This document shows, in pieces, positions 16,907 through 28,478 of a stretch of 64,000 nucleotides of DNA. Within the stretch, counting starts at the first letter, position 1. Every line of letters starts with the position of its first letter. The DNA lies in assembly GCA_027024155.1 (NCBI GenBank), contig JALVTE010000121.1, forward strand, positions 62,001-126,000, written 5' to 3'. The position numbers and the translations under genes are program-made. The notes under the pieces are model-generated. The model was given only the letters and a program-made list of their open reading frames with translations, was not told the origin of the DNA and ran no database searches. This DNA is from Campylobacteraceae bacterium. Its GTDB lineage: Bacteria; Campylobacterota; Campylobacteria; Campylobacterales; Sulfurovaceae.

Positions 16907-17569
16907 TTAGTCTATAATTCTTAATCTATATGTAATATCTTGCTTAAATAAACCCTCTTCGCCACCAAAAGAAATAATATAATAACCTGTAGGTAAAGAG
17001 GTTAATGCAATCCAATAACCAGTAGATATAGCTCTAAAATCACTTTCTGGAATAATACTAAAACAAGTTTTGCTAGTAGATTTATATTTAGATAGCCCTT
17101 CTAGTGCAACCCCATTAATCTCTAAATAGATATTTTTTGCATTAAAACTACGATTAATATTTCCAATACCTTCACTACATGACATATGATCTGAAAGCTC
17201 ATAAATAGTATTAATTATAGGAAAAAATATAGCTTTCCCTTTTTTAATTGTTACTGAACGTGTGATAGGTTTTTTCTCAAATGAGCCACCTAAAAAATAT
17301 ATATCACCCATATCTCCTAAATATGCTAATCTACCTGTTTTATCAACTATAGGGTGCTTATCTTTATTAAATGAGTATACCCATTGCCACCAAATATCTG
17401 CCCACTCATCTAAATATTTACCTTTTAATTGATTATTGGGAGACAATAGTCCAAACTCTTTAAAATTAGAAGTTTTTTTGTTTCTTACATCTCTTTCTTC
17501 AGGTTTCATAAGATATTTAAGTGCATAATAGAGAGCAACACCAGAGAATAAAATAATTATAAAAAACAT
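16907..17569 (-). CDS. Hypothetical membrane-anchored protein
   Basis: N-terminal TM, 220-aa ORF. Confidence 0.65.
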   Translation of the reverse strand: MFFIIILFSGVALYYALKYLMKPEERDVRNKKTSNFKEFGLLSPNNQLKGKYLDEWADIWWQWVYSFNKDKHPIVDKTGRLAYLGDMGDIYFLGGSFEKKPITRSVTIKKGKAIFFPIINTIYELSDHMSCSEGIGNINRSFNAKNIYLEINGVALEGLSKYKSTSKTCFSIIPESDFRAISTGYWIALTSLPTGYYIISFGGEEGLFKQDITYRLRIID

Positions 17570-18144: not shown

Positions 18145-18987
18145 ATGAAAAAAACACTTACACTTTTAGCACTTAGTGCTACTTTAGCTTTAGCTAAAAC
18201 ATCTGTTACTGCAATGCCATATAGTGCTTATATTGATTATTCAGGTTCTACAAAAGATAAAGCATATGTTGTAGGTATGTATTCATCTTTTTATAACTTA
18301 TCTAATAAGTTAGAGTTAGGATTAGAGAATATAACTATTAATTATAATGATGGTTCTAAAGATTTAGATCAAGATGATTTTACTGCTGTTTACACAAGAT
18401 ATATAGCTAAAAATTACTATATTAAAGGTGGTTTTCACTATATAAGTAGTGATGATGCAGGCACAGATGAGGGTTTAATTGGTATTGTTGGTTTTAATTA
18501 CTATAAGTATTTAAAATATAATTTAGGTTTAGATTTATACTATAGCAAATATAAAAACTACTCTCCAAAAGAGTTAAAAGTGCTACAAGTAAAGCCATAT
18601 GTTGGTTATAATTTTGGTAAGTATAATAGTAAAATGGGTTCATTTTATTTAGAAGCTGAGTATAACTATATTAAGCCAAATGATGCTTCACTTTTTGGTT
18701 TAAAAAAGAGTTATAACTCTTTTGGTTTAAATTTAACAAATTATAACGGTAAATTTACAACATCTATTGGAGGATGGGCTGGTAAGAAAGTATTTGCAGT
18801 AGACAATGGTGGTTTTACCGTTTATAATTTAGGAGAAGTTTATAAAGCGGGAGCAAATGCTAGTGTTGATTATGCACTTAGACCAACTACGCATTTAAAG
18901 TTCAAATATAGTTATGCTAAATTCAAAGAGGGTAATAAAAATGCTCACTCAAATACAATAGCTACCTCTATATCTCATACTTGGTAA
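18145..18987 (+). CDS. Outer-membrane beta-barrel protein (paralog 1)
   Basis: Signal peptide, alternating aromatic strands, C-terminal THTW-like (SISHTW) end. Confidence 0.75.
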   Translation: MKKTLTLLALSATLALAKTSVTAMPYSAYIDYSGSTKDKAYVVGMYSSFYNLSNKLELGLENITINYNDGSKDLDQDDFTAVYTRYIAKNYYIKGGFHYISSDDAGTDEGLIGIVGFNYYKYLKYNLGLDLYYSKYKNYSPKELKVLQVKPYVGYNFGKYNSKMGSFYLEAEYNYIKPNDASLFGLKKSYNSFGLNLTNYNGKFTTSIGGWAGKKVFAVDNGGFTVYNLGEVYKAGANASVDYALRPTTHLKFKYSYAKFKEGNKNAHSNTIATSISHTW

Positions 18988-19244: not shown

Positions 19245-20090
19245 ATGAAAAAAAGTGTTATCTTCTCTGTGATTCTCTTTAGTGTATCTATTGCACAGCC
19301 TATTTTTACAACTGTACCATACTACTCTTATACTAAATATAGCGACCAGTTTAAAGAAGATTCTAATGGTATGGGTATTTATGCTTCGTTATATAACTAT
19401 CCTCATCAGCTCGATTTTTCAGTTGATTATACAAATATTAATTTTAAAGCAAATGTTCCAAAATATGAGCAGACAGAGATGACTGGTGTTTATAGTTATT
19501 TCTTAAATGAAAATCTATTTTTAAAAGGTGGTTTGCATTTTGTTGCAAGTGATTATAGACCATCTAATGAGGGTTTAGCAACTATTATTAGTGGGGCTGA
19601 TTATAACTATAATAATTCAAATTATGGATTAGAATTTTTTTATAGTAATTATACAAAATATACTCCAAAATCTCTAAAAATAGCACAAGTTCATCCATAT
19701 TTTAAGTACCACTTTGAACCCAAAAATAATATTTTTGGAAATTTTGATTTGATGGTAGATTATAATTATATTAAACCTAGCAAAAGTTACCTATATCAAG
19801 ATGTAAAAGAGAGTTACGGCTCTACAGGATTAAAATTGACAAACAATAAAGGTAAATGGAGCACATCTATTGAAAAATGGATAGGAAAAAGAGCATTTGC
19901 ATTAGAAGATGGTGGCTTTACTTTATACAATTTAAGCCAAATATATACCGGTGGATATGGTGCAGGCATTAGTTATCATATAAAAGATAAAGCTACTATT
20001 TTATTAAAGTATAACCATAAAAGCTATATAGATTATAATAAGAAAGGTCATTCAGACGGTATTACTAGCTCTTTTTCTTATACTTGGTAG
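19245..20090 (+). CDS. Outer-membrane beta-barrel protein (paralog 2)
   Basis: Co-linear similarity to 18145..18987 (e.g. DYNYIKPS vs EYNYIKPN, ...FALEDGGFTLYNLSQIY vs FAVDNGGFTVYNLGEVY, ...SFSYTW vs SISHTW). Confidence 0.75.
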   Translation: MKKSVIFSVILFSVSIAQPIFTTVPYYSYTKYSDQFKEDSNGMGIYASLYNYPHQLDFSVDYTNINFKANVPKYEQTEMTGVYSYFLNENLFLKGGLHFVASDYRPSNEGLATIISGADYNYNNSNYGLEFFYSNYTKYTPKSLKIAQVHPYFKYHFEPKNNIFGNFDLMVDYNYIKPSKSYLYQDVKESYGSTGLKLTNNKGKWSTSIEKWIGKRAFALEDGGFTLYNLSQIYTGGYGAGISYHIKDKATILLKYNHKSYIDYNKKGHSDGITSSFSYTW

Positions 20091-20096
20091 GTATTA

Positions 20097-20693
20097 TTAT
20101 TTACCAAATAGATACTGCTTAGCAGTTACATTATTTGGGTCTAAAATTAAGATATATTGATAAACTTTTTTTGCCCCTTTTATATCTTTTTTGCTAAGTA
20201 AATTTGCTAATTGCTCTAAGTATATTGTGCTTGTAGGATATAGAGATAACATTTTTCTTGTTAATTTTAATGCTTGTTTATACTCCCCTTTCTCTTTTAA
20301 TGCAAGTATTAAATTATAATTGCCATAAAAATTATATAAATCAATTTTTAATATAACATTTCCTATTCGAATTGCACTATTTGCATCTCCTAGATTTAGA
20401 TAACTTTTTATTAAGCCTAAGTTAGCTTCTATAGAGTTTGGTTCTGCAATTAATGCCATTTTATAATGTTTAATTGCATTTTTGTATTTTTCATCAAGAA
20501 AAAATAGCCAAGCTAAACGCAAGTTTATAAAGTATTGGTTAGGGCTCTTTTTGTATAGTGGTATTAAAACTTTAATAGCATCGCTAAAATCAGACATCTT
20601 TTCATAATTGTATGATTTTAAGTATATATTTTTAATATTGAACCCATAAGTAAAGATTGCACTAAGACTAACGATTAAGACTATTTTCTTCAT
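20097..20693 (-). CDS. TPR-repeat exported protein
   Basis: Repeats ...AIKHYKMALIAEPNSIEANLGLIKSYLNLGDANSAIR...; overlaps upstream gene by 26 bp. Confidence 0.8.
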   Translation of the reverse strand: MKKIVLIVSLSAIFTYGFNIKNIYLKSYNYEKMSDFSDAIKVLIPLYKKSPNQYFINLRLAWLFFLDEKYKNAIKHYKMALIAEPNSIEANLGLIKSYLNLGDANSAIRIGNVILKIDLYNFYGNYNLILALKEKGEYKQALKLTRKMLSLYPTSTIYLEQLANLLSKKDIKGAKKVYQYILILDPNNVTAKQYLFGK

Positions 20694-22677
20694 TTATCCT
20701 CTTTAATGTAAAATTTTTACCCGATATAGAGTTGAATCCTTTTTCATAAAAGCAAAAAGACAATTCCCCATATTTTGATGTTATTTTTAATTTATCTTTT
20801 TTGTATATCTCTTTTTTGTTAAATAGTTTATAATTAAAAGATATAATAAACTCCATTAACGAACTCTTTATTTTATTATATCTTAAATCTATAGGAAGTG
20901 TATCTTCGTACTCTACTTCTTGTCCTGTGAGTGGGATTTTTGGAGCAATTTTAAATAACTCTTTTAAGTAACTCTCGCTACCTTGATACTCATAAAAATA
21001 GAATAGTTTATTATCTAAATAGAAAAATAGTTTATTTACGCCATCGCAAAAATAGAATTCGCCGATATCATTCATTTTTACTGTTAAAGTGTACTCTTTA
21101 TCTCTGTTATCTATAAATTTAAATTTATCATCTAGTATAAATGTTAAGTGTAGTTGTGTAGCTTTATCAACTGTAGTGGCTTTAATATCCTCTCCTGTTT
21201 TGGGTAATTTATAGTAGTTTAATCTATTATTATGTATATAATCTATAAATTTAAATGGTATAGTTTCGCTTCCTAAGACAGCGTATTTTTGTACCTGTAT
21301 ATGAATGTGAGGTTCTGGAGAGTAACCACTATTACCACATTTTGCAATTATTTGACCAACTTGTAGATAATCTCCAATATTTACTGTAACAGAGTTTTGC
21401 ATTAAGTGTGAAATTTCTACATAATAGCCATAGTTTGAGTATATTATAATATAATTACCCCAATTATTAACTCTATCTACATTTCCTATAAAGTTATCAG
21501 GTAAATCACTTCTTATATCTACAACATAACCATTTATTGGTGCAGTAATATCTTTTCCAAAAGCATAATAATCTTCTAAAAAGTGTCCCTCATCTTTATA
21601 TGTTTTACCATTTTTTCTAACAACAAAATCATAAGCATAACGCCATGGACCTTTATGTGTCCACTTATCATTAAAAGATTGATAGACACTCCACTCTCCA
21701 ATAAATGGTAAATTTATCTTTATATCATTACCACCAAATCTATAAATAGATGATAAAAAAGCATTAAGAGATTTCTCAGGTGTCTCTTTTGGATTATAAT
21801 TGTAATACTTATATCCAATAGCTACTGTTAGCATTAAAAAAAGAATTGTAATAATATTAAATGGCATTGTATAGACAGGCAGAGAGTAAGTATTTAAAAA
21901 TACTTCCATAGAATCAATTAGTACAGCAGACATAGCAACTGCTATCATAGCTATTAAATAGTTCCTTACATTAGCGATTAAAAAAATCCCACCAAGTGAC
22001 ATAGCAATTAAAATAAAATTAAAGTTATATGGTGAATTCACAGCGTCGCAAAATGGGACAAAAATAGTATGTACAGCTACACCCACACCAAAACCTAAAA
22101 TAGCCATTAAAAAGAGTATTCTTGAGTATAAAAGAAGAAGAAGAGTTATAACAAGCCCAGAAATCGTATATGGTAAGAAAAATATAGTCCCTATCGATTT
22201 AAAAAATGGCTCTAAAGGTAGAGAGATATCAAACAGTGGTTTGCGGTGTAATATATTACTTAAAAGGTTTGTGTATTTTAAACTTGCTAAGTAAAATATC
22301 ATAGCTACAAACGAGAAAGGTATTGATAAAATAGGAATAGAGTATTTTAAAAATATTCTATTTAGTGCAAATGTAAATAGAAATGTAAGCGAAGCTAATA
22401 TAGCTGTTAAAATAATTGTAGATAGTGTTATATCAAAATAGTAACCAACACCCATACCAACTAGCAAAGAGTTGTATAGATAGAATCCATGTTTTAAATA
22501 CTCATCTCTTACGCTTATAATTTCGGCAAAAATAATACTAGAGAATATTGCAACTAAACCTAAAGTTCCAACACTTGGCAGTAAAAAAGAGAGTGCAAGA
22601 AGCACAATACCTGCTTTACAATCACTTAAAAAAAGGATTGAAAAGTAGGCTTTTAATAAAAAGTTTAACTTCTGCAC
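20668..22677 (-). CDS. Urea transporter-like membrane domain fused to M23 (LytM) peptidase-like domain
   Basis: N-terminus resembles bacterial UT family (LFLSDCKAGIVLLALSFL...LYNSLLVGMGVGYYF); C-terminus HKGPWRYAYDFVV...YVEISHLMQNSVTVNIGDYLQVGQIIAKCGNSGYSPEPHIHIQVQ is M23-like. Confidence 0.8.
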   Translation of the reverse strand: MQKLNFLLKAYFSILFLSDCKAGIVLLALSFLLPSVGTLGLVAIFSSIIFAEIISVRDEYLKHGFYLYNSLLVGMGVGYYFDITLSTIILTAILASLTFLFTFALNRIFLKYSIPILSIPFSFVAMIFYLASLKYTNLLSNILHRKPLFDISLPLEPFFKSIGTIFFLPYTISGLVITLLLLLYSRILFLMAILGFGVGVAVHTIFVPFCDAVNSPYNFNFILIAMSLGGIFLIANVRNYLIAMIAVAMSAVLIDSMEVFLNTYSLPVYTMPFNIITILFLMLTVAIGYKYYNYNPKETPEKSLNAFLSSIYRFGGNDIKINLPFIGEWSVYQSFNDKWTHKGPWRYAYDFVVRKNGKTYKDEGHFLEDYYAFGKDITAPINGYVVDIRSDLPDNFIGNVDRVNNWGNYIIIYSNYGYYVEISHLMQNSVTVNIGDYLQVGQIIAKCGNSGYSPEPHIHIQVQKYAVLGSETIPFKFIDYIHNNRLNYYKLPKTGEDIKATTVDKATQLHLTFILDDKFKFIDNRDKEYTLTVKMNDIGEFYFCDGVNKLFFYLDNKLFYFYEYQGSESYLKELFKIAPKIPLTGQEVEYEDTLPIDLRYNKIKSSLMEFIISFNYKLFNKKEIYKKDKLKITSKYGELSFCFYEKGFNSISGKNFTLKRINEENSLNR

Positions 22678-22692
22678 TTATATCCCTTTATT

Positions 22693-24027
22693 TTACTTTA
22701 AAACTTCTGGCATATGCTCTTTTTCTACGATATACTCTAAATCGTCAGCATCTTTAATTAAGTGAACTTTAGACTCTTTATCAATCAGTACAATACTTGG
22801 CTTATATCTAATAAATTGCATCGCTTGTGTTACACTATATGCACCTGCTGGCCAAATTGTTAATACACTCTCTCTATCTAATGGTGGTAACATAATATTT
22901 TCTGCAATTATGTCGATATTCATACATAGTGGTCCATTAATTTGAGATGGCTCATTAATTCCTTCGTATCGTTTATCTAACATAATGTCAAAGTTGTACC
23001 AAAAGCTTGTATATAGCAAGTTTACACCCGCATCAATAATATAACTCTTCTTACCATCTGGCATTCTTTTAGATGCAAATACGCTACTTAGCAGGTATCC
23101 AGCTTCATCAATTAGTGCTCTTCCTGTCTCTAGGAATAGCTTAGGTAAATTGCCTTTATTGTGCTCAAAAATTGCATTTGTAATAGCCTCTGCATACTCA
23201 TCGGCACTTGGAACTATAACTTCTGGTGCTTGATAAACACCCTTTAATCTACTCTTACTAGCAAATCCACCACCTATATCGATATATTCGATATTGTAGC
23301 CAAACTCCTCTTCTACTCTATTTTTAAGCTCAATAAGCTTTTTAGTCTCTTGCCCATAAGCGTTTGCATTTAGCATAAATGTGCCAATATGAGAGTGCAA
23401 ACCTGTTAAGATAAGCTTTTTACCCTCGTAAATTCTCTTAATTGCTTCGTACGCTTCGCCATTATCTATGTTAAAGCCAAATCTGCTCCACTGAGGGTAA
23501 ATTCCTGTATCCATATTACATCTAATCGCAACTTTTATCTCTTGCCCAATCTCATCTGCAACATCTTCTAAGTCATTAATTTCATACAAATGGTCGATAT
23601 GAATTTTTGCACCCTCTAGTGCTGCTTGCTTTAAAAACTCTTTTTGCTTATATGGTCCGTTAAAGATAATATCTTTACCCTCAATCCCTAAGCGTCTAGC
23701 TTTTTGGTACTCGAATTCACTAACAACTTCTGCTTTAGAGCCCAAATTATGAAACACTTGGCAAATTGCATCTAAATAGTTGGTTTTATAACTCCACCAA
23801 AATTGAACATCTGGATAACGGCTACTAAATGCTTCGTGTAACTCATTATACTTCTCTTCAATCGCTCTTTGAGAAAATACAAAAAGTGGGCTACCATACT
23901 CTTTTGTAAGTTCGTTTACACTTACTCCATCGATACTGCTTTTAATCTTTTGGCTCTTTAGCGGGCTTCCGTATTTACTTGCAAGTGCAAAATCTACTCT
24001 ATTTATTGTTGGTTTTTGGTATTTCAT
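22693..24027 (-). CDS. PLP-dependent decarboxylase, diaminopimelate/ornithine decarboxylase fold-III type
   Basis: YGSPLFVFSQRAIEEKYNEL; FWWSYKTNYLDAICQVFHNLGSKAEVVSEFEY; GLHSHIGTF; YIDIGGGF; ETGRALIDEAGYLL. Confidence 0.88.
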   Translation of the reverse strand: MKYQKPTINRVDFALASKYGSPLKSQKIKSSIDGVSVNELTKEYGSPLFVFSQRAIEEKYNELHEAFSSRYPDVQFWWSYKTNYLDAICQVFHNLGSKAEVVSEFEYQKARRLGIEGKDIIFNGPYKQKEFLKQAALEGAKIHIDHLYEINDLEDVADEIGQEIKVAIRCNMDTGIYPQWSRFGFNIDNGEAYEAIKRIYEGKKLILTGLHSHIGTFMLNANAYGQETKKLIELKNRVEEEFGYNIEYIDIGGGFASKSRLKGVYQAPEVIVPSADEYAEAITNAIFEHNKGNLPKLFLETGRALIDEAGYLLSSVFASKRMPDGKKSYIIDAGVNLLYTSFWYNFDIMLDKRYEGINEPSQINGPLCMNIDIIAENIMLPPLDRESVLTIWPAGAYSVTQAMQFIRYKPSIVLIDKESKVHLIKDADDLEYIVEKEHMPEVLK

Positions 24028-24035
24028 AATTTCTC

Positions 24036-25046
24036 CTATTTCTCTTTTGTTGCTAACAGTTTTGTAAATTCAGTAAAATCGACCATTGTCTCATCTACAA
24101 ACCTCATATACATCTTCTCTTTTTCATAATTAAAGTTTGGCTCTACCTCTTTTCCAGATGCTAAATCTAACATCATTTGTGGTAAATTAACCCCAAGTTG
24201 TGTACTAAAATAGACCCAAGCAGGGAAACGAGGATTTATCTCGATTAAGTAAATCTCGCTACCATTTGCCATTGCTTCAAACTCAAAAGCTCCTCTCCAG
24301 CCAGTACTCTCTACAAATTTTTGAGAAAGTTCCAAAAGTTTTGGGTTATTAATACTAACCGCACTCCAAACTTTACCAAGCTCTGTAGTTGTAAGTTTTT
24401 TCGCACCAACACCGCCAACTAACTCTTTGCCATTTCCAATACCTACAAAGTTAATCTCTTCGCCACTTACAACTTGTTGAGCTAGTAGTGGAAAGCCCCA
24501 CTCGTTAGAAATTTTGTAGTAGTAATCAATCGCTTCATCTATACTATACGCTTTGTATGCTTTATAGTAATTCCCCTTTACCATAATCGGAAAGCCAAAC
24601 TCTCTAGTAGCTGCAATTAAATCATCAAGAGAGCTTACTTCCATAGTTTCTGGGTGTTTTACGCCAAGCTCTTTGCTAAGTTTTGGCAATTTACTCTTAT
24701 CACGCATTTCAAAACACTCTAAAGATGGCAAGTAGCTACCAATTCCCAATTCGCTAATCTCATCTTGGTACTTAATATAGAGTGGCAATTCAGCATCTAA
24801 GTTAGGAATAATAAAATCAATATCCGACTTCTCTTTAATTTGCACTACTCTATTTTTAAACTCTTCATACCCCAAAGATGGATACGGCATCAAGTAAACT
24901 TTTTCAAAAAAATCTTGATAGACCCCCGGCTCATTTGGGTCGTAACTTAAACCAATTAGAGTATGCTCATCTTTTAAACTCTTTGCAACTGGAATACCTG
25001 GACCTGGATTATCGGTATTGTTTAATCCACTAATTGCAACTCTCAT
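24036..25046 (-). CDS. ATP-grasp domain ligase
   Basis: FGFPIMVKGNYYKAYKAYSIDEA; GAFEFEAMANGSEIYLIEINPRFPAW. Confidence 0.88.
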   Translation of the reverse strand: MRVAISGLNNTDNPGPGIPVAKSLKDEHTLIGLSYDPNEPGVYQDFFEKVYLMPYPSLGYEEFKNRVVQIKEKSDIDFIIPNLDAELPLYIKYQDEISELGIGSYLPSLECFEMRDKSKLPKLSKELGVKHPETMEVSSLDDLIAATREFGFPIMVKGNYYKAYKAYSIDEAIDYYYKISNEWGFPLLAQQVVSGEEINFVGIGNGKELVGGVGAKKLTTTELGKVWSAVSINNPKLLELSQKFVESTGWRGAFEFEAMANGSEIYLIEINPRFPAWVYFSTQLGVNLPQMMLDLASGKEVEPNFNYEKEKMYMRFVDETMVDFTEFTKLLATKEK

Positions 25047-25279
25047 TACACAAGTCCGTAAATTTTAATTTTTTGAAAGAAATCCTCTACATCAATATGC
25101 ACTTCTCTCCAATCTACACCACTCTCTTTTGCAATAGTCTGCACAATTTCATCTTTGCTTTTACCCTCTTTGATTAAGTTTATAATCTCTTTAGCAGTCT
25201 CGTTTAACTGGTAAGATATACCTAAAGATGGAATAAATCCCATATTATTATCATCTATCACAATTTCATTTATTAACAT
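25046..25279 (-). CDS. PqqD-like small protein
   Basis: 77 aa, YQLNETAKEIINLIKEGKSKDEIVQTIAKESGVDWREVHIDVEDFFQKIKIYGLV matches PqqD-type pattern. Confidence 0.75.
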   Translation of the reverse strand: MLINEIVIDDNNMGFIPSLGISYQLNETAKEIINLIKEGKSKDEIVQTIAKESGVDWREVHIDVEDFFQKIKIYGLV

Positions 25280-26035: not shown

Positions 26036-27640
26036 ATGAATCAAGAGAAAGTAAAAGTAACAGAAAATACAAAAGTTTATCTAATAGGTAGTGGTATCGC
26101 CTCTTTAGCTACTGCATTTTATTTAATAGAAGATGCAGACTTAAATCCAGAAAATATCACTATTTTAGAGCAACGAAATGTAAGTGGTGGTGCACTTGAT
26201 GGTTCGGGTAATCCAAACGATGGCTATCTTATTCGAGGCGGTCGTATGCATGAAAAAAATTATCGTTGCTATTGGGGGCTTCTTTCACATATTCCTTCGT
26301 ATGATAATCCAGAAATTAGTGTTACCGATGAGTCAATGGAGTTTAATGAACGCTTTGTTTCACATGCCCAGGCACGACTTATTAAAGATGGCAAAAAAGT
26401 CGATTTAAGCTCTTATGGTTTAAATGCCCGCGACCAATTTTTAATGAGCAAGCTTCTGTTTACACCAGAGAGCCAACTTGACGGTATGACAATAGAAGAG
26501 TGGTTTGATGGTGAATTTTTCCATACAAATTACTGGTACCTCTTTACAAGTATGTTTGCATTCCAAAAGTGGAGCTCTTTAATGGAGATGCGACGCTATA
26601 TGCTAAGATTTATGCATTTAATGCCAGGTATGAAACACTTAGAGGGAATTTTAAGAACCAAATACAACCAATACCATTCGGTAGTTTTACCGATGCAAAA
26701 TTACCTGCAAGATAGAGGTGTTCATTTTGAATTGAGTACTCAAGTTATAGATATAGACTTTGATATTCAAGGTAAAAATAAAAGAGCAACTGCGATACAT
26801 ATCCTAAAAAATTCTGAGACTAGCACAATAGAGTTAGGCAAAGAGGATTACTGCTTCTTGACCAACGGCTCAATAGTAGATGCTGCTGATGAAGGAGATT
26901 TAAATACTGCTCCTGTTTTAAAAAGTGTTGAGGAATCAGGAGCATGGTCTCTTTGGAAAAAAGTTGCATTAAATGATTCAAGTTTTGGTAATCCTTCTGT
27001 ATTTTGCGATAGTATAGATAAGCAAAAGTGGTACTCATTTACTGTAACAATGAGAGATAGCACTTTCTTGGATTATATGGAAGATTTTACCGGTAATGTA
27101 GATGGTACTGGAGGTTTAGTTACTTTAACAGATTCTAATTGGCTGATGTCGATTGTAATTGCAAGACAGCCTCACTTTCCAGACCAGCCTAAAGATGTTA
27201 AGGTATTTTGGGGCTATGGACTTTATCCTGATAGAATCGGTAATAAAGTAAAGAAAAAAATGAGTGAATGTAATGGAAAAGAGATTTTAGAAGAGCTATG
27301 GTATCATCTGAAAATAGAAGAGTTAATGGAGCCTATAATGCAAAGCGATAAATTCATTAATGCTATACCAGTTGCAATGCCATTTATAGATAGCCTATTT
27401 ATGCCACGCTCATATGGAGACAGACCAAAAGTTATTCCAGACGGAAGCCAAAACTTCGCCTTTTTAGGGCAGTTTACCGAAGTAAAAGATGATTGCGTCT
27501 TTACTGTTGAGTACTCTACACGAACAGCACAAGAGGCGGTTTATGGATTTTTCGATTGTGGTAAAAAGCCACTACCTGTTTATGTAGGAGCACATAATCC
27601 TGTAGCAGTTGCAAAAGCTTTTGCTGCTTTAATGGAGTAA
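26036..27640 (+). CDS. ohyA: Oleate hydratase (MCRA family)
   Basis: YLIGSGIASLATAFYLIEDA...NVSGGALDGSGNPNDGYLIRGGRMHEKNYRCYWGLLSHIPS; full-length 534 aa. Confidence 0.93.
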   Translation: MNQEKVKVTENTKVYLIGSGIASLATAFYLIEDADLNPENITILEQRNVSGGALDGSGNPNDGYLIRGGRMHEKNYRCYWGLLSHIPSYDNPEISVTDESMEFNERFVSHAQARLIKDGKKVDLSSYGLNARDQFLMSKLLFTPESQLDGMTIEEWFDGEFFHTNYWYLFTSMFAFQKWSSLMEMRRYMLRFMHLMPGMKHLEGILRTKYNQYHSVVLPMQNYLQDRGVHFELSTQVIDIDFDIQGKNKRATAIHILKNSETSTIELGKEDYCFLTNGSIVDAADEGDLNTAPVLKSVEESGAWSLWKKVALNDSSFGNPSVFCDSIDKQKWYSFTVTMRDSTFLDYMEDFTGNVDGTGGLVTLTDSNWLMSIVIARQPHFPDQPKDVKVFWGYGLYPDRIGNKVKKKMSECNGKEILEELWYHLKIEELMEPIMQSDKFINAIPVAMPFIDSLFMPRSYGDRPKVIPDGSQNFAFLGQFTEVKDDCVFTVEYSTRTAQEAVYGFFDCGKKPLPVYVGAHNPVAVAKAFAALME

Positions 27641-27647
27641 ACTTCGG

Positions 27648-28478
27648 ATGTATTACTTAAATATACTCTTTTTTATTGTTACAGTAGGGTTATTCTTTCT
27701 ACTCTACTGGGCAGTTAAGAGTTGGTTGAAAGCAAAAAAGTTAAAAGAGATACTCTCTCAACCATTTCCTAAAGAGTATGAGCAAATTCTAAATAAAATT
27801 CCTTATTATAAAAAACTTGATGCCAATAAGCAAGAGAAGATAAAAAAATCTATTCTTATTTTTATTGGTAGTAAAGAGTTTATAGGTGTTAAGATAGAGC
27901 TTACAGATGAAATAAAAGTAACAATAGCATTTTATGCTTGTTTTCTTCTGTTGAATATTACAAGTGACAACTGTTATGACAATCTATCGACAATAATTGT
28001 TTATCCTAGTCATGTTATTTATGATGTAGCAAGAGAGAATGGAGGAATAGTTTCAAAAGAGCCATTACTGTTAGAGGGACAATCAGCAAATGATACAGTT
28101 GTAATTAGTTGGAACGATGCAAAAAAAGAGGCATATCACATAGGAAAAGAGAATGTAATCCTCCATGAATTTGCACATGAAATTGATTTTTTAGATGGAG
28201 AAATCGACGGCATCCCACCACTAAGTGAATCTAAATATACAGAGTGGAGTGAAGTACTTTATCGAGACTATAATAAGTTAAAAGCAAAGGCAATAGCTAA
28301 CAGATATTGGGGTAAATACAAAATCTTAGGTGATTATGCTGCAACTAACGAAGCTGAATTTTTTGCAGTTGCTACAGAGCGATTTTTCGGCGTACCAAAA
28401 TCTTTAAAACATCATTTTCCTGAACTTTATAATGAGTTAAAAAATTTTTATAAGATAGATCCAGCAGAAGAGTTTTGA
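27648..28478 (+). CDS. mtfA: MtfA-like zinc-dependent peptidase
   Basis: N-terminal TM; VILHEFAHEIDFLDGEIDGIPPL...NEAEFFAVATERFFGVPKSLKHHFPELYNELKNFYKIDP. Confidence 0.88.
   Translation: MYYLNILFFIVTVGLFFLLYWAVKSWLKAKKLKEILSQPFPKEYEQILNKIPYYKKLDANKQEKIKKSILIFIGSKEFIGVKIELTDEIKVTIAFYACFLLLNITSDNCYDNLSTIIVYPSHVIYDVARENGGIVSKEPLLLEGQSANDTVVISWNDAKKEAYHIGKENVILHEFAHEIDFLDGEIDGIPPLSESKYTEWSEVLYRDYNKLKAKAIANRYWGKYKILGDYAATNEAEFFAVATERFFGVPKSLKHHFPELYNELKNFYKIDPAEEF

Follow-up and report, generated by a model that had tools for sequence, protein, structure and literature searches.

A co-inherited six-gene locus of Campylobacterota whose decarboxylase carries a candidate recognition motif for a PqqD-like protein

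Background

In the butirosin pathway, the ATP-grasp enzyme BtrJ loads BtrI with glutamate. BtrK decarboxylates the glutamate carried on BtrI, and belongs with FigC, SbnH, AcsE and MccE to a clade of decarboxylases that act on conjugated (citryl-), peptide- or carrier-bound amino acids and are unrelated to polyamine synthesis (PMC7857480). A second group of systems relies on RiPP recognition elements (RREs). The recognition sequence of the FusE, McjB, PqqD and StsC RREs is W/Y/LxxP/L/I (PMC12710340), the sequence YxxPxL occurs in lasso leaders (PMC6856326), and one discrete lasso RRE has an affinity of about 5 nM for its leader (PMC5067487). Here we describe a locus that resembles both groups in part. 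Its combination of genes was not found in the open-access literature, where a broader search returned only unrelated papers, and the six-gene set matches no described system among those compared here. An earlier reading, made from the sequence alone, had named it the best candidate of the stretch for an undescribed system.

Composition of the operon

The window, the whole 64,000-nucleotide stretch of DNA that was analysed, contains five ORFs on the minus strand whose junctions, in order from the PqqD gene to the TPR gene, are a 1-base overlap, an 8-base gap, a 15-base gap and a 26-base overlap. The sequence-only reading had reported five same-strand ORFs with small gaps or overlaps and had named them PqqD, ATP-grasp, PLP decarboxylase, urea-transporter/M23 and TPR; the layout is confirmed and Pfam matches agree with the names. 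It overlooked a sixth component, a predicted outer-membrane barrel, which is present here in two copies convergent to the operon. We refer to the decarboxylase as DEC and to the fusion protein as UT-M23.

25046..25279, minus strand: PqqD-like peptide-binding protein (RRE fold), 77 aa; PF05402, 1e-10
24036..25046, minus strand: ATP-grasp ligase, 336 aa, carbamoyl-phosphate-synthase-like; PF15632, 3e-8
22693..24027, minus strand: DEC, alanine-racemase-fold PLP decarboxylase, 444 aa; Orn/DAP/Arg decarboxylase PF02784, 4e-33
23950..24027, minus strand: DEC residues 1-26, conserved tail, predicted to be disordered
24004-24021, minus strand: DEC residues 3-8, YQKPTI, RRE-type motif by sequence
23974-23976, minus strand: Lys18 of the DEC tail
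20668..22677, minus strand: UT-M23 fusion, 669 aa, GTG start; PF03253, 5e-58, and PF01551, 5e-11
about 21826-22662, minus strand: urea-transporter channel domain of UT-M23
about 21238-21726, minus strand: M23 metallopeptidase domain of UT-M23
20097..20693, minus strand: TPR protein, 198 aa, apparent signal peptide; TPR match, partner kept across loci
19245..20090, plus strand: predicted outer-membrane beta-barrel, copy 1, 281 aa, convergent to the operon
18145..18987, plus strand: predicted outer-membrane beta-barrel, copy 2, 280 aa, 38% identical to copy 1

The PF05402 match above cut-off in the operon is the sole PqqD of the genome, and the best NCBIfam match of this protein is the lasso-peptide PqqD chaperone model (3.9e-9, under the cut-off). 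The EINPRF metal-binding motif of the ATP-grasp protein is invariant in 15 orthologues. The C-terminal domain that follows M23 in UT-M23 has an unknown fold. For none of the five operon proteins did an NCBIfam equivalog reach its cut-off. The PADLOC defence families gave no match except a marginal one (0.009) for PqqD, and an anti-phage defence system was rejected on this result.

We favour, with a probability of about 0.5, the reading that the locus is a small-molecule biosynthesis-and-transport system in which PqqD would be bound to the decarboxylase tail, a ligase and a decarboxylase would make the product, and a channel and a barrel would move it.

Comparison with described systems

Like the RRE-guided RiPP and lasso systems, in which a B1 protein is paired with a YxxPxL leader, the locus combines a PqqD-like RRE with an identically spaced Y/W-xx-P-x-I/L sequence, which another protein of the operon carries at its N-terminus. 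It differs in that the motif lies on an enzyme, and in that no separate precursor was found; nor was a lasso cyclase (asparagine-synthetase-like) or a B2 protease present among the conserved operon genes or the scanned window neighbours. The siderophore citryl-amino-acid decarboxylases (FigC/FslC, SbnH and AcsE) include the nearest solved relative of DEC by both sequence and fold, the N-citrylornithine decarboxylase FigC (7kh2). DEC shares with them the methionine of the Cys-Met loop (FigC Met355), which by alignment replaces the acidic residue that contacts the free side-chain amine. However, FigC His357, Arg387 and Asn389 correspond to DEC Ile371, Gln401 and Met403, and the operon has no NIS synthetase, unlike the siderophore pathways.

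The butirosin genes offer a parallel in the pairing of an ATP-grasp enzyme with an alanine-racemase-fold decarboxylase that acts on a protein-bound amino acid. The present locus has PqqD and a tail where butirosin has an acyl-carrier protein, and by fold BtrK is less close to DEC than FigC is. The urea-transporter domain (PF03253, 197 bits, above cut-off, residues 6-284) aligns over its full length with solved urea transporters, about 300 residues in the case of dvUT (3k3f), but here it is fused to M23 and a further C-terminal domain. A TPR protein beside a 14-strand barrel recalls Slam, the surface lipoprotein assembly modifier, and a TPR-barrel protein near the variant locus L105 has a weak SlipAM match; in the present operon, however, TPR protein and barrel are separate proteins, and the best fold match of the barrel is OmpG (TM-score about 0.69).

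Conservation and co-inheritance

Profile searches placed DEC and UT-M23 in an identical set of 19 of the 397 Campylobacterota genomes sampled, spanning 10 of 68 genera, a distribution that is patchy but linked. In a second phylum, that of the L039 genome and probably Pseudomonadota, each of the two proteins occurs in 37 of 349 genomes, 31 of them in common, and the operon is present in about 9% of the 349; the majority of fetched loci there have the same operon. A scan of genome contigs with the ATP-grasp protein yielded 39 loci, from Campylobacterota groups and one genome deposited as Mariprofundaceae, and in these the gene order PqqD, ATP-grasp, DEC, UT-M23, TPR held wherever the contig was long enough. 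Order and strand are maintained across dozens of loci, an arrangement far beyond chance, and all six gene families, the barrel included, are present in nearly every complete locus. A search of plasmids with the fusion, the decarboxylase and the ATP-grasp protein found only distant single-domain relatives. In two Campylobacterota genomes the operon is frameshifted or decayed (G053:C1, about 849000-856000; G224:C1, about 201000-207000).

The operon is thus a co-inherited unit; a lack of co-occurrence in other genomes had been named beforehand as a result that would refute the sequence-only reading, and the outcome was the opposite. Nor are its enzymes housekeeping ones, the other outcome that would have counted against that reading: LysA is encoded elsewhere in this genome and scores 538 bits against the LysA model TIGR01048, compared with 220 bits for DEC (cut-off 297.9). 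Diaminopimelate decarboxylase was rejected as the function of DEC on this sub-cut-off score and on alignment with 1twi, in which DEC has CMN where LysA has CES, with its DAP-binding acidic residue after the catalytic cysteine, and in which the specificity-helix arginine of LysA (MMRPAMY stretch) is replaced. N-citrylornithine decarboxylase (FslC/FigC) was rejected on score (215 bits against NF041039, cut-off 500) and on the replacement of the citrate-contacting His357 and Arg387 by Ile and Gln. Given its nearness to FigC, the retained Met355 and the substrates of the clade, we infer from alignment that DEC acts on a conjugated amino acid.

The N-terminal tail of the decarboxylase

The N-terminus of DEC reads MKYQKPTINRVDFALASKYGSP and follows the pattern [YW]xxPx[IL]...(N/S)KFG. 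All but one of 47 aligned DEC orthologues, the most distant at 36-45% identity, have the motif as [YW]xxPx[ILF] (46/47), although the loci are not phylogenetically independent, and (N/S/Q)(K/T)xG follows it in nearly all of them. The tail is conserved from Campylobacterota into the second phylum; within Campylobacterota its conservation equals that of the folded core (0.87 vs 0.82), and residues 1-20 are predicted to be disordered (mean pLDDT 38-54, monomer model). It agrees with the W/YxxP sequence that PqqD-type RREs recognise, a likeness of sequence only, which makes it a plausible target for PqqD. The likely PqqD target would then be a tag on the decarboxylase itself.

The association of the tail motif with PqqD is nearly complete. 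The sole orthologue without the motif (L129) comes from a genome without a PF05402 match, and is limited as a control because it is also the most divergent. A counter-example is found on a viral contig, where a weak PqqD and an ATP-grasp protein accompany a DEC without the [YW]xxP tail. That contig (IMGVR_UViG_3300047160_011268 of IMG/VR, 65.7 kb) carries the triad at L146:3444-5922 beside a phage DNA polymerase and an exonuclease. The tail-less DEC relative at L129:7128-13689 is clustered with WD40, AAA/MoxR-like and TIR proteins.

The usual partner of a PqqD-type protein is a precursor peptide, which might be encoded elsewhere, and PqqD could therefore serve a distant or unrecognised precursor in a RiPP pathway, the likeness of the DEC tail being incidental. 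We regard this as quite improbable. The motif is kept in the DEC tail and is missing where PqqD is missing, and a search in and around 47 Campylobacterota loci found no conserved short same-strand precursor ORF; just two short ORFs there bear the motif, and both are beginnings of DEC truncated at the end of a contig. The sequence-only reading had likewise noted neither an evident precursor nor a radical SAM enzyme, and no radical SAM enzyme was found.

Alternatively, the tail could belong to the structure of the DEC dimer or form an active-site lid, and PqqD could act elsewhere, for example as a regulator. The DEC model is of a monomer only, and in many second-phylum loci PqqD is fused to a TetR-like protein as its C-terminal domain (e.g. 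L099:3652-4458), both of which leave room for such a role. We nonetheless consider it rather unlikely: solved related decarboxylases align to DEC only past the tail, the W/Y-xx-P-x-I/L spacing is kept, the tail is predicted to be disordered, and it is missing in the PqqD-less orthologue.

Membrane components

The putative metal and catalytic residues of the M23 domain (H341, D350, H424, H457 and H459) are invariant in 14 sequences. The loops of UT-M23, with transmembrane boundaries drawn by eye from hydropathy and urea-transporter homology, are more positive on the side of the N- and C-termini in 52 of 52 sequences (mean positive charge 10.8 and 13.5, vs 2.6 and 2.1, at equal loop length). This bias puts both termini of the channel domain inside, and the M23 domain is therefore probably cytosolic. 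A periplasmic M23 was rejected on the same charge bias, as judged from boundaries drawn by eye. The earlier proposal of a biosynthetic pathway with a membrane or periplasmic step is accordingly retained in part: the unit is co-inherited and probably biosynthetic, while a periplasmic peptidase step is not supported.

AlphaFold2 predicts barrel copy 1 as a 14-strand barrel (mean pLDDT 88), and copy 2 has the same context in L002. In Sulfurimonas and Sulfurovum a barrel homologue lies between the UT-M23 and TPR genes; elsewhere it adjoins the operon. At 16907-17569 the window also encodes a membrane-anchored protein of 220 aa that matches no Pfam family.

Proposed function

In the favoured biosynthesis-and-transport reading, PqqD would hold the [YW]xxPx[IL] tail of DEC in the cytosol, as PqqD-like RREs hold leader peptides, and this binding would assemble a ligase-decarboxylase complex. 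The ATP-grasp enzyme would link an amino acid, or else a carrier, through an amide-type bond. DEC would then take the alpha-carboxylate off the amino acid so conjugated, which would leave an amine or amide as product. The product would cross the inner membrane through the urea-transporter channel, at whose mouth the cytosolic M23-type hydrolase may trim or release it; the TPR protein and the 14-strand barrel would have periplasmic and outer-membrane roles. The operon probably makes and moves a small amine compound. If this is true, an RRE-leader pair organises an enzyme complex with no precursor peptide involved, and RRE genome mining that searches for precursors would misinterpret loci of this kind. 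For the fusions of urea transporter and M23, which occur here in both phyla, the reading would suggest what function to seek, and it points to a widespread amine-type metabolite of vent and sediment bacteria. No result favoured acid resistance, by a decarboxylase with an exporter, over this reading.

Against the favoured reading, a charged amine fits the channel poorly because urea-transporter channels pass urea-like neutral solutes, and a passive channel with an OmpG-like barrel could serve uptake equally well. The barrel and the channel, both of a passive-pore type, might instead import a urea-like solute for metabolism by the cytosolic M23, ATP-grasp and DEC proteins. An OmpR-type regulator gene next to the operon in 21 of 50 Campylobacterota loci is in keeping with nutrient uptake, but a catabolic operon would not usually contain a ligase that consumes ATP or an RRE-type scaffold, and we hold this explanation, too, to be rather doubtful.

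A variant that puts all the cytosolic parts to use would have the ATP-grasp enzyme charge Lys18 of the DEC tail with an amino acid, PqqD presenting or holding the tail as it would a RiPP leader. DEC would decarboxylate the tethered amino acid, and the channel-tethered cytosolic M23 would free the product into the urea-transporter channel. The glutamate that BtrK decarboxylates on BtrI is a precedent for a carrier-bound substrate (PMC7857480). A lysine occupies the tail position in every inspected UT-M23 locus, and a threonine takes its place in L130, L131 and L132, all without UT-M23; this association, however, amounts to three related loci and one tail-less locus. Variants with a fold-I decarboxylase also have UT-M23 without PqqD. 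To our knowledge, M23 enzymes are without precedent for the release of such conjugates. We rate charging of the tail as rather unlikely.

Reduced and variant loci

Three genomes (G458, G522 and G562) have only PqqD, the ATP-grasp protein and DEC, with threonine in place of the tail lysine, which indicates that some carriers can do without the membrane parts. In two variants (loci L105 and L112; genomes G442 and G470), UT-M23 and the TPR protein accompany an unrelated fold-I Orn/Lys/Arg decarboxylase and a divergent, weakly recognised ATP-grasp-like protein, and there is no PqqD. The recurrence of UT-M23 with an unrelated decarboxylase and an ATP-grasp-like protein suggests that ligation plus decarboxylation is the chemistry that is kept. 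Elsewhere in the window, at 26036-28478, an oleate hydratase gene adjoins an MtfA-like gene in this Campylobacterota genome.
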